In this document: piece by piece, positions 51,395 to 59,444 of the stretch
Numbering within the stretch: the stretch's first letter is position 1
How the letters are laid out: the number at the start of each line of letters is the position of its first letter
Assembly: GCF_036014015.1 (NCBI RefSeq)
Contig: NZ_CP107905.1
Coordinates: 2,542,001-2,606,000, forward strand
Length of the DNA stretch: 64,000 bases
Reading direction: 5' to 3'
Source: Streptomyces sp. NBC_00457
GTDB lineage: Bacteria > Actinomycetota > Actinomycetes > Streptomycetales > Streptomycetaceae
Position numbers and translations under genes: made by a program
Notes under the pieces: model-generated
Seen by the model: only the letters and a program-made list of their open reading frames with translations
What the model was told of the DNA's origin: nothing
Database searches by the model: none

Positions 51395-51402
51395 AGCAGG
51401 GG

Positions 51403-52305
51403 TCAACTCCGGGTCAGATCCCGCGCCGTGCGGCTGATTCGGTCGAGCGCGACACGGGCGGCAACGACGGCCGGGTGATCGTGGCTGCCAGTTCGGGTGG
51501 CGATGAGGACGCGCCGAGCGTTCGGCGGCGTCAGCTCGGTGAGTGTCACCGTAGGAGCGTGGACGCCCAAGGCAAGTTGGGGCAGGAATCCGACCGCCTG
51601 CCCGGCTTCGATCAATCGCACATGGAAGGTGAGGTCGGTCGACTGGTAGCGAACGTGGGGTTCAAAGCCGGCTTGGCGACAGACTGCGTCGGCCCAGCGC
51701 CTGGCGGCATTGCCCTCGGGCTCCATGACCCAGGGCAGGTGCGCGAGAGCCGCGAGTTGCGGCGGCTCGCCATCCGGTGGGGTGGCCAGAAGAAGAGGAT
51801 CCTCGAGCAGAAGCTGAGTGTGCAGGCCGGTCAGAGCCCACGGCGGTTCTCCCGGATACTCCTCGGCGAGGACCAGGTCGAATTCGTGCGCGACAAGTGC
51901 CCGCAGCGGTGTGCGTTCGTTCTCCTGATGCACGTGGACGCGAAGCCGCGGATGCTCGCGCTGAAGCAATTCTACGGCAGGTAGGACCAGGGTCTTGGCG
52001 GCAGTCTGGAAGGTTGCGACCCGCAAGTCCCCCTCGAGCACAGTTTTCGTCCGCGCGATATCCGCCTCGGCCTGCTCGAGCCGGTCCAAGATCACCTCGA
52101 TATGCCCGACCAGCATCTCCGCCGCGGGCGTCAGACGGACCCGACGTCCCATGGGTTCCAGGAGCGGGACGCCCACCTCGGCCTCCAGCTGCGAAAGCTG
52201 CGACGAGATGGTCGAAGGACTGTACGAGAGGGCCGAAGCCACAGCTGCAAGGGTGCCGCGGTGCTTGAGTTCGCGCAGCAACCGAAGCCGGTGAAGGTCG
52301 TACAT
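51403..52305 (-). CDS. LysR-family transcriptional regulator
   Basis: A 300-aa protein. The winged helix is N-terminal (LRLLRELKHRGTLAAVASAL, SPSTISSQLSQLEAEVG) and the effector domain follows from about 90. The ATG at 52305 gives the usual MYDLHRLRLL start; the longer frame adds residues with no family support. It is divergent from the Liv-type operon, 358 bp away, so it probably controls that operon. Confidence 0.88.
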   Translation of the reverse strand: MYDLHRLRLLRELKHRGTLAAVASALSYSPSTISSQLSQLEAEVGVPLLEPMGRRVRLTPAAEMLVGHIEVILDRLEQAEADIARTKTVLEGDLRVATFQTAAKTLVLPAVELLQREHPRLRVHVHQENERTPLRALVAHEFDLVLAEEYPGEPPWALTGLHTQLLLEDPLLLATPPDGEPPQLAALAHLPWVMEPEGNAARRWADAVCRQAGFEPHVRYQSTDLTFHVRLIEAGQAVGFLPQLALGVHAPTVTLTELTPPNARRVLIATRTGSHDHPAVVAARVALDRISRTARDLTRS

Positions 52306-52663
52306 CACGCACCAATCGCCGCTCGCGACCAACCGATTCGTCGCTTGAGACAACCGATCGTACGGGAAAGCATTCGCCGACCCGCATTGAGTCGCCGAGA
52401 GACCAGGTGCAGGTCGGCTTGATTGGTCGAAAAAACCGACGAGTGCGCATCGATAACGACGACTGGACCGGACATTGGTGGGCGCCTAGCATTCCAGAAC
52501 CGCGAGATTCGGCCACCCCGAGATCCGCGCTACGGCCGACGCAGCCCGCAGCGCATGGGTATTGGTCATCAGTTCTCCCCACGCTGTCGTCGCTGCCTGC
52601 CGGCCCACCCGCCCGCCCGCCGCAGGCCGATCAGATCTCCCGCCGTGCGAATTCGGAGAGGCC
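52306..52663. other. Divergent promoter region
   Basis: There is no gene in these 358 bases. They separate the LysR gene from the Liv operon and should hold both promoters. A moderately A/T-rich patch lies around 52420-52450; I could not define a LysR T-N11-A box with confidence. Confidence 0.45.
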
Positions 52664-53986
52664 ATGACACCACCCCGTGCACGTTGGCGCGTACGCCGCG
52701 ATCCTGCTCGCCTGTCACTACTGCGGGGAGCGGTCATGCTCGCGATCGCCCTGCTCGGCGTCGTGGCCGTGGGCGCTCCGACGTACGCGGCTGATGATCG
52801 GACCGTGCAGGGAACGTTGCGCAACTCTGCCGACGACAATGCACCGGTCGCTGGGGTGAAGATCAGTGTCCGGACCAGTACGGGGAAGACGTACACAGGC
52901 GCCAGCAACGACCAGGGCCGGTTCGCGATCACTGTGCCCGGCAGCGACTCGGGCACCTTGGCCGTCATCCTGGACACCAAAACGCTGCCCGATGCTGTGC
53001 GGATCCGCGACGGAGCGTCGAACACCCTGCGGCCGACGGGCAGCTTGAGCACGATCACCGTGAACTTCCCCCTCGGTCCCGATACCCGTCAAGTGTCGAC
53101 AGTGTGGGACCAGGTCCCCCAACTGCTCTACAACGGCCTGCAGTTCGGCCTGGTGCTGGCATTGGGGGCGCTTGGCCTGTCCATGGTCTTCGGCACGACG
53201 GGACTGTCAAACTTCTCCCACGGCGAGCTGGTGACCTTCGGGGCATTCGCCACCTATCTCGGCAACCGGGTCGTGGGGCTGCCCATCGTCGTGGCGGTGG
53301 CGATGGCGGTAGGGCTGTCGGCCCTGTTCGGCTACCTGAACGAAAAGGGTTTGTGGCGTCCACTCAGACGCCGCGGAACGGGACTGATCGCCATGATGAT
53401 CGTCTCGATCGGTCTGCAGTTCTTTCTCCGGAACTTCTACCAGTACTTCACAGGTGGCCGCGCCCTGACCTACCGCGAATACGTCACGCCCGCCGGCCGA
53501 GACGCCTTCGGCCTGTTCACCTACACCATGCGAGACGTCGTCATCATCTCCATCAGTGGGCTTGCGCTCGTCGCGGTCACTCTCGCTCTGCAGTACACCC
53601 GGCTCGGTCGCGCCACACGAGCGGTGTCGGACAATCCGGCCCTGGCCGCCGCGACGGGGATCAACGTCGGCCGTGTCATAGCCACGGTGTGGATCGTGGG
53701 CACCGCGCTGGCGGGACTGAGCGGGGCGTTCTTGGGATTCTCCCAATCGGTGAGCTACCAACTGGGAGCGCAGATACTGCTGTTGATCTTCGCCGCCACC
53801 TGTGTCGGAGGTCTGGGATCAGTGTGGGGCGCGATGATCGGCTCGGTCATCATCGGGCTGTTCGTCGAGACCTCAACCTTGGTCATCCCGTCGGAACTCA
53901 AGTTCGCGGGCGCGATGGTCCTGCTGGTGCTGGTCCTGCTCGTCCGACCACAAGGCCTGCTCGGCCGTGCCGAGAGGGTCGGGTGA
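52664..53986 (+). CDS. livH: LivH-type ABC permease with exported N-terminal domain
   Basis: A 440-aa protein. Residues 1-42 form a signal or helix ending in PTYAAD. Residues about 45-130 form a beta-rich carboxypeptidase-regulatory/SdrD-like domain (VQGTLRN, GVKISVRTSTGKTYTG, DQGRFAITVPG). The LivH permease with about eight helices covers 145-440 (VFGTTGLSNFSHGELVTFGAF, ALQYTRLGRATRAVSDNPALA). Normal LivH is about 290-300 aa. The ATG at 52664 has GGAGAGG upstream. Confidence 0.87.
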   Translation: MTPPRARWRVRRDPARLSLLRGAVMLAIALLGVVAVGAPTYAADDRTVQGTLRNSADDNAPVAGVKISVRTSTGKTYTGASNDQGRFAITVPGSDSGTLAVILDTKTLPDAVRIRDGASNTLRPTGSLSTITVNFPLGPDTRQVSTVWDQVPQLLYNGLQFGLVLALGALGLSMVFGTTGLSNFSHGELVTFGAFATYLGNRVVGLPIVVAVAMAVGLSALFGYLNEKGLWRPLRRRGTGLIAMMIVSIGLQFFLRNFYQYFTGGRALTYREYVTPAGRDAFGLFTYTMRDVVIISISGLALVAVTLALQYTRLGRATRAVSDNPALAAATGINVGRVIATVWIVGTALAGLSGAFLGFSQSVSYQLGAQILLLIFAATCVGGLGSVWGAMIGSVIIGLFVETSTLVIPSELKFAGAMVLLVLVLLVRPQGLLGRAERVG

Positions 53987-53990
53987 GGAC

Positions 53991-54971
53991 ATGGACATCA
54001 TCGGCGCCGTCACGGGGGCACTGCACGACGGCTTCGGCTATCTGGCCGTCTCGTTCTGCCTGGCTGCGATCGGTTTGAACATTCAGTTCGGCTACGCCGG
54101 GCTGGTCAACTTCGGTCAGGCCGCCTTCTTGTCGGTGGGCGGCTACATCATGGGCGCGGCGATCGCCACGAGCGGGATTCCCACCGTCCTCGCGATCCTG
54201 CTCGCGATCGCCTGCACCGTGGCGCTGGCGTTGATATTGGGCATCCCCACCCTGCGTCTTCGGGCGGATTACCTGGCGATCGTCACCATCGCGGCGGCAG
54301 AGATCCTACGGCTTGTGTTCGGGACGTCGTTCCGGACGTACTTTCACGGCAAGGACGGTGTGACCGGCTTTACCGCCGGGTTCCGAAGCCTCAACCCGCT
54401 GCCGAACTATGACGGCTTCTTCCTCACCTACAGCCGGGAGGAGCTGTGGACCATCATGGTCGGCTGGGGTCTGGTCATCATGATCAGTCTGCTCACCTGG
54501 GCCCTGATGCGGTCACCGTGGGGAAGGGTTCTCCGGGGCATCCGTGAAGACGAGGATGCGATGCGGTCTCTGGGCAAGAACGTCTACGGCTACAAGATCC
54601 AGGCCCTCATCCTCGGTGGAGTGGTCGGATGCGCCGGAGGCTTCGTGGGCGCGTTCGGGGCAGCTTCGGTCCAGGCCGACACGTTCAACCTGGACTTCAC
54701 CTTCATCGCCTTGACCATGCTCATCCTCGGCGGCGCCGCTCGGATCCTTGGTCCGATCGTCGGCGCGGTGATGTTCTGGGCGGTCCTGTCGTTCCTCGGA
54801 TCGATCTTGACGCAGTTGGCGAGCTACCCGGTCGTGGGGCGGTTCATGAACGCCGACCAAGCGTCAACCATCCGGCTGATGTTGGTCGGACTGGTGCTGA
54901 TGCTGCTGATGATCTACCGGCCGCAAGGCATCTTCGGTGATCGAAGGGAGATCGCGCTCGATGCCCACTGA
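53991..54971 (+). CDS. livM: LivM-type ABC permease
   Basis: A 326-aa protein with about eight to ten helices. GYAGLVNFGQAAFLSVGGY and SPWGRVLRGIREDEDAMRSLG are the LivM loops. It begins 4 bp after livH and overlaps livG by 11 bp, so it forms one membrane complex with LivH. Confidence 0.92.
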   Translation: MDIIGAVTGALHDGFGYLAVSFCLAAIGLNIQFGYAGLVNFGQAAFLSVGGYIMGAAIATSGIPTVLAILLAIACTVALALILGIPTLRLRADYLAIVTIAAAEILRLVFGTSFRTYFHGKDGVTGFTAGFRSLNPLPNYDGFFLTYSREELWTIMVGWGLVIMISLLTWALMRSPWGRVLRGIREDEDAMRSLGKNVYGYKIQALILGGVVGCAGGFVGAFGAASVQADTFNLDFTFIALTMLILGGAARILGPIVGAVMFWAVLSFLGSILTQLASYPVVGRFMNADQASTIRLMLVGLVLMLLMIYRPQGIFGDRREIALDAH

Positions 54972-55896
54972 CAATTTCCCCACTGACCACCTCACCTCTG
55001 GCACTGCCTTGCAGTCGGTGCCGCGTGAGCCCGGCGCTGCCAAACCCGACCCCGTTGTGGTCGTGAACGGAATCCGCCGCACCTTCGGCGGCCTCACCGC
55101 GGTCGACGTGGAGCATCTCGAAATCCAACGTGGGATCATCACCGCCTTGATCGGACCCAACGGTGCGGGCAAAACCACGTTCTTCAACCTGCTCACCGGC
55201 TTCGATCAACCCGACGCCGGTTCCTGGTCCTTCGACGGGACACCGCTCAAAGGCAAGGCGGCCTACAAAGTGGCACGCCTCGGCATGGTCCGGACCTTCC
55301 AGCTGACCAGAGTGCTCTCGAAACTGACAGTGCTGGAGAACATGCGGATGGGCGCCACAGGGCAGCGTGGCGAACGCTTGTGGGCCGCCGCACTCCCCGC
55401 CCTGTGGCGGGCGCAGGAACGAGACATCACCGACCGGGCCCGGGACCTGCTCAAGCGGTTCAAGCTCGACGCCAAGGAGGAGGATTTCGCCGGATCCCTG
55501 TCAGGCGGCCAGCGAAAGCTGCTCGAGATGGCGCGAGCACTCATGGTCGAACCGAAGCTGGTCATGCTCGACGAACCCATGGCCGGCGTCAACCCAGCGC
55601 TGAAGCAGTCCCTGCTCGGGCATGTGAAGTCGCTGCGGGATCAGGGAATGAGTGTCCTGTTCGTCGAACACGACATGGACATGGTGCGAGAGATCTCCGA
55701 CTGGGTGGTCGTCATGGCCCAGGGCAAGGTGATCGCCGAGGGACCTCCCACATCCATCATGTCCGACGAACGCGTCATCGACGCCTACCTCGGAGCTCAC
55801 CACGACACCGACATCAGCGAGCTCGAAAGCGTCATCCAGGTCGAGCACACACACGACCACGCCGAGCAGAGGGCCGACCGGGAGGTCCCGAGATGA
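54961..55896 (+). CDS. livG: LivG-type ABC transporter ATPase
   Basis: A 311-aa ATPase. Walker A is GPNGAGKTT, the signature is LSGGQRKLLEMARAL, Walker B is LVMLDEPMAGV and the switch His is in VLFVEHDMDMV. RTFQLTRVL is the Q-loop region typical of LivG. N-terminal (about 45 residues) and C-terminal tails are longer than usual, the latter His/Asp/Glu-rich (HTHDHAEQ). Confidence 0.93.
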   Translation: MPTDNFPTDHLTSGTALQSVPREPGAAKPDPVVVVNGIRRTFGGLTAVDVEHLEIQRGIITALIGPNGAGKTTFFNLLTGFDQPDAGSWSFDGTPLKGKAAYKVARLGMVRTFQLTRVLSKLTVLENMRMGATGQRGERLWAAALPALWRAQERDITDRARDLLKRFKLDAKEEDFAGSLSGGQRKLLEMARALMVEPKLVMLDEPMAGVNPALKQSLLGHVKSLRDQGMSVLFVEHDMDMVREISDWVVVMAQGKVIAEGPPTSIMSDERVIDAYLGAHHDTDISELESVIQVEHTHDHAEQRADREVPR

Positions 55897-56708
55897 CGTC
55901 TGCCCATCACGGCCCATCGGACTCCCAGATCACCTCTCGGACAAGGCACTTGCAGGCGGCCGAGGACGCAATCCTTCGCGCCGACGATCTGATCGCCGGG
56001 TACCTCCCCGGAGTCAACATCTTGAACGGCGCCGACCTGTACTGCCTGCCCGGCGAGCTGGTCGGCATCATCGGACCCAACGGCGCCGGCAAGTCGACAC
56101 TGCTCAAAGCACTCTTCGGGCTGGTCAAGGTCACCACCGGCACGGTTCGCCTGCGGGGCGAGGAGGTCACGAACCAGCGCGCCGACGCACTGGTATCCCA
56201 AGGCATCGGCTTCGTACCGCAAACCAACAACATCTTCCCCTCGCTCACCATCGAGGAAAACCTGCAGATGGGGTGCTATCAGTCCCCCAAGAAGTTCGCC
56301 CCCCGGTTTGCGTTCGTGACCGATCTGTTTCCTGCGCTGGGTCGGCGCCGCAGGCAGCGGGCCGGACAACTGTCAGGCGGTGAGCGGCAGATGGTGGCCA
56401 TGGGCCGGGCTCTGATGATGGAACCCTCCGTGTTGTTGCTCGACGAACCCTCAGCGGGCCTCTCCCCGGTGATGCAGGACGAGGTGTTCGTCCAGACCCG
56501 AGCCATCAACCGCACCGGTGTATCGGTCGTCATGGTCGAGCAGAACGCACGCCGCTGCCTGCAGATCTGCGACCGCGGGTACGTCCTCGACCAGGGACGC
56601 AACGCCTACACCGGGCCCGGACAGTCGCTGGCCCGTGACCCCCGGGTGATCGAGCTGTATCTCGGCACCTTGGCCAAGGCCGCCCAGGCAGAAGGCACAC
56701 CTTCCTGA
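55893..56708 (+). CDS. livF: LivF-type ABC transporter ATPase
   Basis: A 271-aa ATPase overlapping livG by 4 bp. Walker A is GPNGAGKST, the signature LSGGERQMVAMGRAL and Walker B SVLLLDEPSAGL. VPQTNNIFPSLTIEENLQMG is the LivF Q-loop. An N-terminal extension of about 25 residues is present. It pairs with LivG to drive the importer. Confidence 0.93.
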   Translation: MTSAHHGPSDSQITSRTRHLQAAEDAILRADDLIAGYLPGVNILNGADLYCLPGELVGIIGPNGAGKSTLLKALFGLVKVTTGTVRLRGEEVTNQRADALVSQGIGFVPQTNNIFPSLTIEENLQMGCYQSPKKFAPRFAFVTDLFPALGRRRRQRAGQLSGGERQMVAMGRALMMEPSVLLLDEPSAGLSPVMQDEVFVQTRAINRTGVSVVMVEQNARRCLQICDRGYVLDQGRNAYTGPGQSLARDPRVIELYLGTLAKAAQAEGTPS

Positions 56709-56776
56709 CCCCCGCCACGGCACGGTCATGCACCACGCCAAGAGCGCAACAGTCCTCACCCACCCTTGGAGATCCC

Positions 56777-58087
56777 ATGTCGCTCCCGCGACGCATCATC
56801 TGCATAGCCGTTTCGGCCTCCGCCGCGCTGGCAACCGCCGCTTGCGGCTCCAACGACAGCCCCTCCCAAGCCGGCAACGAGCCGTCGGCCAAGGCGGGCA
56901 CCCAGCTCTACTTCGTGGACGGCAACACCGCCGACTACTCCGGTGATTTCGAGCCGGGCACTCTCAACGGTGTGCGCGCCACCCTGCCCGGCGGCAAGAT
57001 CGGCGACGAGTTCCGACAGCGGATCCTCAAGATCAACAGCAAGGTGAAGGACTTCACCTACGCTCCCGAGGCCTACGACGCCACGATCCTCTCCGCCCTG
57101 GCTGCGATCGCCGCCAAGAACGACTCCGGCAAGGCGATCGCCGAGAAGGAGATCGGTATCACCAGGGACGGGACAAAATGCACCAGCTTCAAGCAGTGCG
57201 CCGGCCTGCTCGCTGACGGAACGGACATCGACTACGACGGTGCCTCGGGCCCGATCCAGTTGAACTCGACAGGAAGCCCGTCCGCGGCGACCGTCGGCAT
57301 CTACCAATTCGGGCAGGACAACAACTACAAGAATGTCCGCTACGTCAGCGGCACCACCCCGGACCAGGCCACCATCCGAGCCGACCAGAAGGTCAGCGGC
57401 CCCATCCCCAAGGGGGACGGCGTCCTGACGTTCGGCACCCTGCTCCCTGCCACAGGGGACAGCTCCTTCCTCGGCGCCCCGCAATTCGCGGGCGTGGACC
57501 TGGCCGTGGACGAAATCAACAAGGCCGGGGGTGTGCTCGGCAAGGGCGTGAAGCAGCTGAAGGGCGACTCCGGTGACGGGTCGCCGAACATCGCGCCGTC
57601 CGAGACCGACAAACTGCTCCGCGGTGGCGCCGACGTCATCATCGGCGCCGCTTCCTCGTCGGTGTCGCTGTCGGTCATCGACAAGATCACCGGGGCCGGC
57701 GCCGTCCAGATATCGGCCGGAAACACCTCGACCGCATTCGACACCTACCCCGACCACGGCATGTACTTCCGCACGGCCCCCTCCGACGTCCTGCAGGGGC
57801 AGGTGATGGCCCAGACCATCACCGAGGACGGTCACAGCAATATCGCAGTCCTCGCCCGACAGGACGCCTACGGCGAGGCACTGGCGAAGAACGTCCGCTC
57901 CTTCTACGAGGAGTCCGGCGGCAAAGTCGTCTCCTATGTCCTCTACGACGCGACCGCAGCCAACTACACGGCCGAGGTGGAGAAGGTGAAGGCCCAGCAC
58001 CCGGACGCCATCGTACTGATCTCGTTCGACGAGACCAAGAAGATCGTTCCGGAACTCATCAAGGCCGGCATCGGCCAGAACGGCTGA
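56777..58087 (+). CDS. Branched-chain-type substrate-binding protein, lobes in swapped order
   Basis: A 436-aa lipoprotein (lipobox TAAC, Cys23). The Liv-type binding fold is present but its halves are in reversed order. Residues about 41-192 carry what is normally the C-terminal part: QLYFVDGN, DFTYAPEAYDATILSAL, CTSFKQCAG (likely disulfide 135-141), DYDGASGPI, GIYQFG. Residues about 213-436 carry what is normally the mature N-terminal part: GVLTFGTLLPATGDSSFLG, FAGVDLAVDEINKAGGVLG, IIGAASSSVSLSVI, ILISFDE-like IVLISFDET, ending ELIKAGIGQNG. The breakpoint is thus just before QLYFVDGN. Both ends join across a linker at about 193-212. It follows the Liv ATPases by 68 bp. Confidence 0.85.
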   Translation: MSLPRRIICIAVSASAALATAACGSNDSPSQAGNEPSAKAGTQLYFVDGNTADYSGDFEPGTLNGVRATLPGGKIGDEFRQRILKINSKVKDFTYAPEAYDATILSALAAIAAKNDSGKAIAEKEIGITRDGTKCTSFKQCAGLLADGTDIDYDGASGPIQLNSTGSPSAATVGIYQFGQDNNYKNVRYVSGTTPDQATIRADQKVSGPIPKGDGVLTFGTLLPATGDSSFLGAPQFAGVDLAVDEINKAGGVLGKGVKQLKGDSGDGSPNIAPSETDKLLRGGADVIIGAASSSVSLSVIDKITGAGAVQISAGNTSTAFDTYPDHGMYFRTAPSDVLQGQVMAQTITEDGHSNIAVLARQDAYGEALAKNVRSFYEESGGKVVSYVLYDATAANYTAEVEKVKAQHPDAIVLISFDETKKIVPELIKAGIGQNG

Positions 58088-58104
58088 GCCCGTACCTGGC
58101 CGAC

Positions 58105-58139
58105 GGTCGTGGCCGCGGATCCGCCCCGCAGCCACGACC
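58105..58139 (+). terminator. Hairpin after the binding-protein gene
   Basis: A perfect 9-bp inverted repeat (arms 58105-58113 and 58131-58139) with a 17-nt loop lies 17 bp past the stop. It may be only partly effective because the PLP-enzyme gene follows. Confidence 0.5.
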
Positions 58140-58182
58140 ACCCACACTGCCGAATCGCCCGTGGAGTGGAGAAGTTTTTCGC

Positions 58183-59412
58183 ATGACCACGAGACCGACG
58201 AAAGCCAGGCCCGCCACCGCGGGGTACGGCGCCGACCCCGACTTCGACACGGTGTACGACCGTGCCAGTTTCGGGTCGGCGAAATGGGCCAACCAATGGG
58301 ACGAATTCTCACCGCGTGTCCAGGGCGAGGATCTGCTGTCGCTATGGACGGCCGACATGGACTTCCGGGCACCGACGACCGTCATCGACCGCCTGCGCGC
58401 CGCCGCGGACCACGGTATCTACGGCTACACCCTGCGAGACCCGGAACACTTCCGGATCGTGCAGAACTGGTTCACCGTCAGGCACGGCTGGACACCACCG
58501 CTGGAAACGCTCCTCCCGGCCCCTGCGATCATGTCCTCGGTCGCAGCGATCCTGCGCACCTTCACCGCCCCTGGAGACGGGGTGATCGTCCAATCACCGG
58601 TCTACTCGCCGAACTTCGAGGCCATTACCGGTAACCACCGGCGGCTGCTCGTGAACCGGCTACGGCTCATTGACAACCGCTATGAGTTCGACCTCGACCA
58701 CCTGGCCGAGCTGGCCGCATCCGGCGCGAAGGTGCTCTTGCTCTGCAACCCCCACAATCCCTCGGGGCGGAGCTGGACGGCCGACGAGTTGCTCGCCGTG
58801 AACGACATCTGTGCGCGCTACGACCTGCTGGTGATTTCCGACGAGATTCACTGCGACATCCGACTGAACAGTCGGCCCCACGTGGTCTACGCCTCGATCA
58901 GCAGCGACGCCGCCCGCCGCGCATTCATCTGCACCGCCCCCACGAAGACCTTCAACCTTGCCGGCCTGCCAACGGCCACACTCTCGGTTGGCGATCCGTC
59001 CCTGCGCTCGGAACTGCTGAACGCCATGCGGGCATCGTTCATGATCAACGCACACTACTTCGGTCGTCTCGCCTTGGAGACCGCCTACACCACGGGCGGT
59101 CCGTGGCTCGACCGGCTGACCGGCTATCTCAAGGGCAACGTGGCCTTCGTGCAGGAGTTCGTCCAAGAGCGGCTGCCCGAGATCACGCCGATGCCGCCGG
59201 ACGCGTCGTTCCTGGTCTGGCTGGAGGCTCGTGAGCTTGACGCTCGTGTGGGCGGGCTGCACCAGTTCCTTGTCGACCGTGCGGCTGTCAATCTCTACGA
59301 CGGCCGGGTCTACGGCCCCGGAGGAGAGGGATACGTCCGGCTCAACGTCGGCTGCCCCCGGAAGGTGTTGACTGAGGCGCTCGAACGCATCGATCGTGCG
59401 CTGTCACGCTAA
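58183..59412 (+). CDS. MalY/PatB-type PLP-dependent C-S lyase or aminotransferase
   Basis: A 409-aa fold type I PLP enzyme. ADMDF near residue 58 is the MalY/PatB signature. CNPHNPSGR, VISDEIHCDI and the PLP lysine Lys255 in TAPTKTFNLAG follow, and GYVRLNVGCPR is the substrate carboxylate site. Members cleave C-S bonds (cystathionine-type) or aminate. It stands 95 bp after the binding protein, so it may process an imported sulfur-containing or branched amino acid. Confidence 0.9.
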   Translation: MTTRPTKARPATAGYGADPDFDTVYDRASFGSAKWANQWDEFSPRVQGEDLLSLWTADMDFRAPTTVIDRLRAAADHGIYGYTLRDPEHFRIVQNWFTVRHGWTPPLETLLPAPAIMSSVAAILRTFTAPGDGVIVQSPVYSPNFEAITGNHRRLLVNRLRLIDNRYEFDLDHLAELAASGAKVLLLCNPHNPSGRSWTADELLAVNDICARYDLLVISDEIHCDIRLNSRPHVVYASISSDAARRAFICTAPTKTFNLAGLPTATLSVGDPSLRSELLNAMRASFMINAHYFGRLALETAYTTGGPWLDRLTGYLKGNVAFVQEFVQERLPEITPMPPDASFLVWLEARELDARVGGLHQFLVDRAAVNLYDGRVYGPGGEGYVRLNVGCPRKVLTEALERIDRALSR

Positions 59413-59444
59413 GCGGCCTTGGTGAAGTCGGCTGCGGTTCGGCA

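Follow-up and report, generated by a model that had tools for sequence, protein, structure and literature searches.

A circularly permuted Liv-type solute-binding lipoprotein from Streptomyces and evidence for recurrent permutation in its family

Introduction

The Liv-type (HAAT) solute-binding proteins (PF13458, LivJ/LivK; PDB 4gnr, 3ipc and 4n0q) are the closest described relatives of the protein studied here, which is encoded in a stretch of 64,000 nucleotides from Streptomyces sp. NBC_00457 (contig NZ_CP107905.1, positions 2,542,001 to 2,606,000, forward strand; hereafter the window). As in these relatives, the window protein is a predicted lipid-anchored protein whose gene lies beside LivHMGF-like genes, and both of its parts are homologous to theirs. 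Unlike them, it has the two parts swapped; a linker spans the old ends, and the new ones lie in a different loop. Judged by its alignments, it is a variant rather than an ordinary member of the family.

Circular permutants of a further type I binding protein, ribose-binding protein, have been engineered (PDB 7QSP and 7QSQ, as mentioned in PMC10601554). They are laboratory-made, whereas the family described here is natural, conserved and recurrent. In another protein family, the cpRAS GTPases provide a case of natural circular permutation with a scattered distribution (PMC2430557, summary). Compared with that account, the present family stands out by containing several permuted clades, by two cut sites close to each other and by doubled proteins that still exist. 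Among titles and abstract openings in the open-access PMC literature, a scope that excludes preprints and subscription papers, we found no natural circular permutation of a solute-binding protein.

Domain Order of the Permuted Protein

A first-pass annotation of the window had proposed that motifs of the normal C-terminal part come first behind the lipobox, followed by a linker at about residues 193–212 and the normal N-terminal part, leaving the whole fold present with new termini and the old ones joined. Homology searches bore this out. A search with the protein in its native order found at least 120 homologues (60–93% identity, 90–100% query coverage). Searching with the parts swapped additionally found normal-order proteins, at 60–66% identity over 89–99% of the swapped query; these sisters (P0121–P0123, P0125, P0127–P0135) run N-then-C. 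When the 135 homologues among the matches listed and the window protein were classed by segment order, 123 were permuted, 13 normal-order and none unclear, so that 122 of the 135 homologues (about 60–93% identical) have the order of the window protein. In every one of the 13 sisters, amino acids 213–436 matched the N-terminal part and amino acids 43–192 the part directly behind it, both when aligned separately and in swapped order (identities in Table 1). This rules out chance as the source of the similarity of amino acids 41–192, whose lack of homology to the C-terminal part would have overturned the proposal. Both segments are homologous to one protein, their order is swapped and the domain is whole, as a circular permutation demands.

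The protein starts with a signal peptide and a lipobox, which we take to end at Cys23 from its familiar motif. A tether follows, the folded part opens with TQLYFVDGN, and the C-terminal end reads ELIKAGIGQNG. Permuted proteins mostly begin their folded part with QLYFVDGN, end near GIGQ or GLGQ, and across the old termini typically read ..YVTGxIPDxxxVKxxQxVSGxxPKGDG... The 13 sisters carry the junction GIGPxDVQxYFVDGN and end in ..YVTGxI. The annotation had placed ELI-x-AGIG directly before QLY-VDGN in normal-order proteins; these old neighbours are indeed the present termini, but a few residues separate them in the sisters. Since the window protein keeps a similar number of residues (QNG), the cut costs hardly any aligned residue. 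By these comparisons the domain is complete, opened in one loop and bridged across its old ends by a linker of ~20 amino acids.

The chain is now opened in the loop that leads from the last helix to the strand QLYFVDG, which is where the lipid tether would be attached, and not at the usual first strand. This shift of attachment point, presumably to the second lobe of the fold, is the clearest physical change that the permutation would bring. Two cysteines, Cys135 and Cys141 (window 57179–57199), are invariant in the 76 aligned permuted proteins, an alignment that leaves out P0126 with its internal deletion, and the corresponding pair is invariant in the 13 sisters. They likely form a disulfide.

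Profile annotation overlooks the permutation, as the four matching Pfam models (E up to 1) cover amino acids 218–433 and portions thereof. In native order, PF13458 covered amino acids 218–433 only (profile positions 3–216 of 343; 106 bits against a curated cut-off of 31.7), and the collinear N-then-C order of this domain is swapped in the window protein. Amino acids 41–213 alone (window 56897–57415) matched PF01094 at positions 267–350 of 353 (E 3.7e-4). After swapping, PF01094 matched in one stretch (positions 6–350 of 353; 92.5 bits, against 84.8 in native order), PF13458 extended to position 306 (109.3 bits), and the best PDB match lengthened from 208 to 289 residues of the query. An AlphaFold2 model of the protein was confident (predicted local distance difference test, pLDDT, 85.7). 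It was compared with solved structures by sequential alignment, which covers amino acids 214–436: residues 215–435 of the model aligned onto residues 1–221 of 3ipc, and Foldseek matches spanned 198–254 columns. The model of normal-order sister P0123, used as a control, gave 325–424 columns in the 50 matches shown (root-mean-square deviation 7–15); it shows only that a normal-order protein aligns lengthwise.

Our reading is that the window protein is the lipid-anchored type I binding protein of a Liv-type (HAAT) ATP-binding cassette importer, circularly permuted, in a family where permutation by duplication has recurred. We put the probability of this reading at roughly 0.87.

Transporter Association and Ligand

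In the window, the LivHMGF genes adjoin the permuted gene and are co-directional with it. Among the best 80 of 568 loci from a genome scan, most loci with enough flanking sequence likewise have the binding-protein gene beside LivHMGF, usually in convergent orientation; among the exceptions, L046 is divergent, L100 and L105 are co-directional, and at L061 no such neighbour was seen. The window protein most likely delivers its ligand to the adjacent LivHMGF transporter, a partnership suggested by gene adjacency, and the predicted ligand is most likely amino-acid-like. The PatB-family C-S lyase encoded next in the cassette hints at a sulfur-containing amino acid as putative ligand, which is a guess.

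Alternatively, the window protein could be an orphan receptor or sensor. This would fit the loci of one related permuted clade (clade M, see below), where all three loci examined showed no LivHMGF match in the ~19.5 kb fetched, and the fusion of a permuted binding protein to an Hsp70-like domain at L051. We consider it unlikely for the window protein, as LivHMGF is adjacent and co-directional there and lies beside the gene in most permuted and normal-order loci with enough flank.

Distribution and Phylogeny of Permuted Proteins

In the phylum, at least 8 of 396 genomes had a full-length permuted match (E up to 1e-30, with scoring of four candidates in each genome). Of two orders, one had such matches in at least 12 of 248 genomes and the other in 2 of 36. 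In one family of the class to which the window genome belongs, 107 of 150 genomes matched, 8 of these through the N part alone, which leaves at least 99 with a full-length permuted match. The phylum, 248-genome and 150-genome counts are lower bounds, resting on some of the candidates per genome; the 99 was read from a table, and in 22 of these genomes open frames were used to check the part order. Within the window's own family (150 genomes), the only full-length permuted match was in the window's own genome. The best 80 of the 568 scanned loci comprised 20 permuted (L029–L046, L048, L051), 59 normal-order and one too short to class (L070). Among the permuted loci are those of Streptomyces sp. 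GESEQ-4, S. scabichelini, three Nonomuraea, Marmoricola sp. Leaf446, several Nocardioides and a number of metagenome-assembled genomes. The swapped order is found in separately assembled Streptomyces, Nonomuraea, Nocardioides and Marmoricola.

The ends of the permuted proteins fall at two cut sites. Type A, found in three clades, is the site of the window protein. Type B, found in two clades, lies ~25 residues further on: these proteins run through ..DGNxGNxxGExFDxG to the C-terminus and restart near L(E/A)G(V/M/W)(K/R)GT.

For phylogenetic analysis, all proteins were re-ordered to N-then-C, leaving out open frames with a match of the N part alone (22) or none above threshold (5). FastTree (183 rows) and IQ-TREE (model LG+C20+F+G4; 81 rows, left from 338 extracted ones after similarity thinning to 131 and further thinning by hand) agreed in placing the permuted proteins at five places among the normal-order ones. 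In the IQ-TREE analysis, type A forms clades main (support 100/89), A2 (L043 and L044; 100/95) and M (100/100), and type B forms clades B (100/96) and B2 (two genomes; 100/100). A tree of the N part alone yields the same five groups, so the re-ordering is not their cause.

Approximately unbiased (AU) tests of joined groups, which were named after the first tree (FastTree) had been seen, rejected a single origin of all permuted proteins (all five, p = 6e-78). Rejected as well were main+A2 (5e-5), B+B2 (1.5e-4), A2+M (0.012), A2+B2 (0.006), B+M+B2 (0.008), main+B+M (9e-6), main+B2 (8e-65) and A2+B+M (1e-4). Since B+M is the exception, these rejections point to at least four separate origins of permutation, five in the best tree. 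Clades B and M, possibly of one origin, have different cut sites.

Could there instead have been one old circular permutation, with repeated reversion to normal order via the same duplication route? Duplication could run either way, and tree counts alone cannot separate gain from loss. However, the wider superfamily and outgroup L005 have normal order, each permuted clade sits by itself among normal-order branches, so that reversion would take more changes, and the permuted proteins have two different cut sites. Repeated reversion therefore seems improbable to us, and we prefer repeated permutation.

Two observations concern permuted proteins outside clade main. The clade-M lipoproteins L222, L223 and L224, without LivHMGF match in the sequence fetched, may be orphan binding proteins; the clade is carried by at least 99 of the 150 genomes of one family. 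L051 carries two permuted copies, and there a frame of 990 amino acids (L051:1031–4000, +) joins an Hsp70-like domain (PF00012, amino acids 48–394), a hydrophobic stretch and a type-B permuted binding protein. This fusion is a possible transmembrane receptor.

Doubled Proteins and the Route of Permutation

Permutation by duplication predicts a fused N-C-N-C protein (INTERMEDIATE). The genome survey contained two, L213 (a frame of 818 amino acids, next to which lies another, separate copy) and L214; around L213, four units stand in a row, convergent to LivHMGF (L228). In a database search with the L213 protein, 58 of the 120 matches listed were N-C-N-C (781–872 amino acids) and the other 62 N-C, so a fused tandem intermediate occurs within the wider family. 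Named sources include Chloroflexota, Poriferisocius and Ilumatobacter. The two units were 50–70% identical in seven of the 14 doubled proteins examined and 97–100% identical in the other seven (P0142, P0186–P0189, P0192, P0197), which fall in three regions of a tree. Such near-identity could also reflect gene conversion or, for metagenomes, the assembly. In P0192, the sequence that follows the lipobox of unit 1 recurs in the linker joining the two units, as expected from an in-frame duplication that spares the signal peptide.

Two other arrangements were seen. L229 and L228, from two genomes, hold rows of three and four binding-protein units, respectively, side by side and partly fused. P0206 and similar proteins of ~754–777 amino acids fuse a normal-order binding protein to an NMT1-type binding domain (precomputed Pfam PF13379/PF09084), by their domain content a second kind of binding-protein fusion.

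The route we propose would begin with in-frame tandem duplication of a normal-order gene, giving an N-C-N-C protein. If its first N and its last C were then lost, by deletion steps that we presume, C-N would remain behind the signal peptide. In the family, such a permutation would have taken place at two neighbouring sites and at least four times, or five times by the best tree. The first-pass annotation had already suggested in-frame duplication with loss of the outer halves. That doubled proteins exist, some with near-identical units, supports this route indirectly; of those placed in a tree, none is sister to a permuted clade.

This last point is one of several that weigh against our reading. 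With 14 of the 58 N-C-N-C proteins placed in a tree, their units fall among normal-order branches, which leaves the duplication route open rather than shown as taken. The AU test did not reject B+M as one clade (p = 0.063). Resolution is low in the C-part tree, where 36 of 78 branches are open and clade main is split and needs three changes. The distant permuted rows come partly from metagenome assemblies. The Pfam score gain on swapping was only modest, and the P0123 control model was poor (pLDDT 62.8, built from 13 sequences). Finally, against the more distant L033, the ratio of nonsynonymous to synonymous substitution rates (dN/dS) was 0.385, with dN above dS in the linker.

The split of clade main in the C-part tree could also suit a different origin, in which the C part of one paralogue was fused to the N part of another without duplication of a single gene, and neighbouring copies do exist (L058, L213, L228). 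Yet the other four permuted groups hold together in both part trees, the C-part tree has the low resolution just described, and with neighbouring paralogues the difference from duplication is small. We regard paralogue fusion as a rather remote alternative to single-gene duplication.

It appears likely that permutation has a natural hot spot in this actinobacterial family of solute-binding proteins, with four or more independent events, probably five, at two sites ~25 residues apart. These events would be fed by in-frame tandem duplication that continues and leaves doubled proteins at all stages of divergence, and the move of the tether to the second lobe is maybe what is selected. As a rule, a natural circular permutation has to be deduced from its two end states. 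In this family, normal, doubled (units 50% to 100% identical) and permuted forms occur side by side, and permutation appears to have arisen several times, which opens the process of permutation by duplication to study as a natural experiment that has been repeated. The family could further be used to test whether the tether point of a binding protein matters to its transporter, and it provides natural permuted scaffolds for biosensors.

Gene Integrity and the Surrounding Cassette

Against five close relatives, dN/dS of the window gene was 0.21–0.25, and by this measure the gene is under purifying selection. Together with the intact gene cluster, these ratios speak for a functional protein. As the annotation had stated, the open reading frame is intact and lies directly behind the Liv ATPase genes, with the LivF-like gene just upstream. 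A misassembled, frameshifted or decayed gene, for which we found no supporting point, is ruled out for practical purposes by the same order in many independent records, including other genomes, by intact frames and by purifying selection.

The block 51399–59415, from the LysR-type regulator to PatB (Table 1), recurs at 93–96% DNA identity in S. scabichelini (L032) and Nonomuraea sp. G32 (L035), and megablast found no match outside this block at either of these two loci. This points to horizontal transfer of a ~8-kb cassette common to Streptomyces and Nonomuraea. PatB follows the permuted gene in all six cassette copies seen (window, L029–L032, L035).

Table 1. Features of the permuted gene and of the cassette around it (window coordinates). 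Liv gene names are those of the best NCBIfam matches, which score below their curated cut-offs.
Feature	Coordinates	Strand	Basis or remark
LysR-type regulator, divergent from LivH, first cassette gene	51403..52353	-	
LivH-like permease (start uncertain)	52562..53986	+	NCBIfam matches below curated cut-off; PF02653 above
LivM-like permease (start uncertain)	53967..54971	+	below curated cut-off
LivG-like ATPase	54937..55896	+	below curated cut-off
LivF-like ATPase (start approximate)	55890..56708	+	below curated cut-off
Circularly permuted Liv-type solute-binding lipoprotein	56777..58087	+	open reading frame, 436 amino acids, ATG start
Signal peptide and lipobox, ending Cys23	56777..56845	+	sequence; Cys23 invariant in 76 aligned permuted proteins
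Amino acids 43–192, homologous to C-terminal part of normal-order sisters	56903..57352	+	57–66% identity, 13/13 sisters; PF01094 positions 267–350
Amino acids 193–212, linker (20 amino acids) bridging old C- and N-termini	57353..57412	+	P195 and Q204 invariant in 76 aligned permuted proteins
Amino acids 213–436, homologous to N-terminal part of normal-order sisters	57413..58084	+	64–72% identity, 13/13 sisters; PF13458 positions 3–216
PatB-family C-S lyase, last cassette gene	58183..59412	+	TIGR04350, 385 bits against cut-off 340

In the cassette (window 56777–59412), the binding-protein gene is co-directional behind LivF, whereas in most other loci it is convergent to LivFGMH, which suggests that the locus was inverted or re-assembled. 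In the LivH-like permease, amino acids 81–127 resemble the beta-sandwich domain CarboxypepD_reg, with a score of 26.1 bits that stays under the cut-off of 32.3. This N-terminal stretch is perhaps an outward-facing domain that meets the binding protein.
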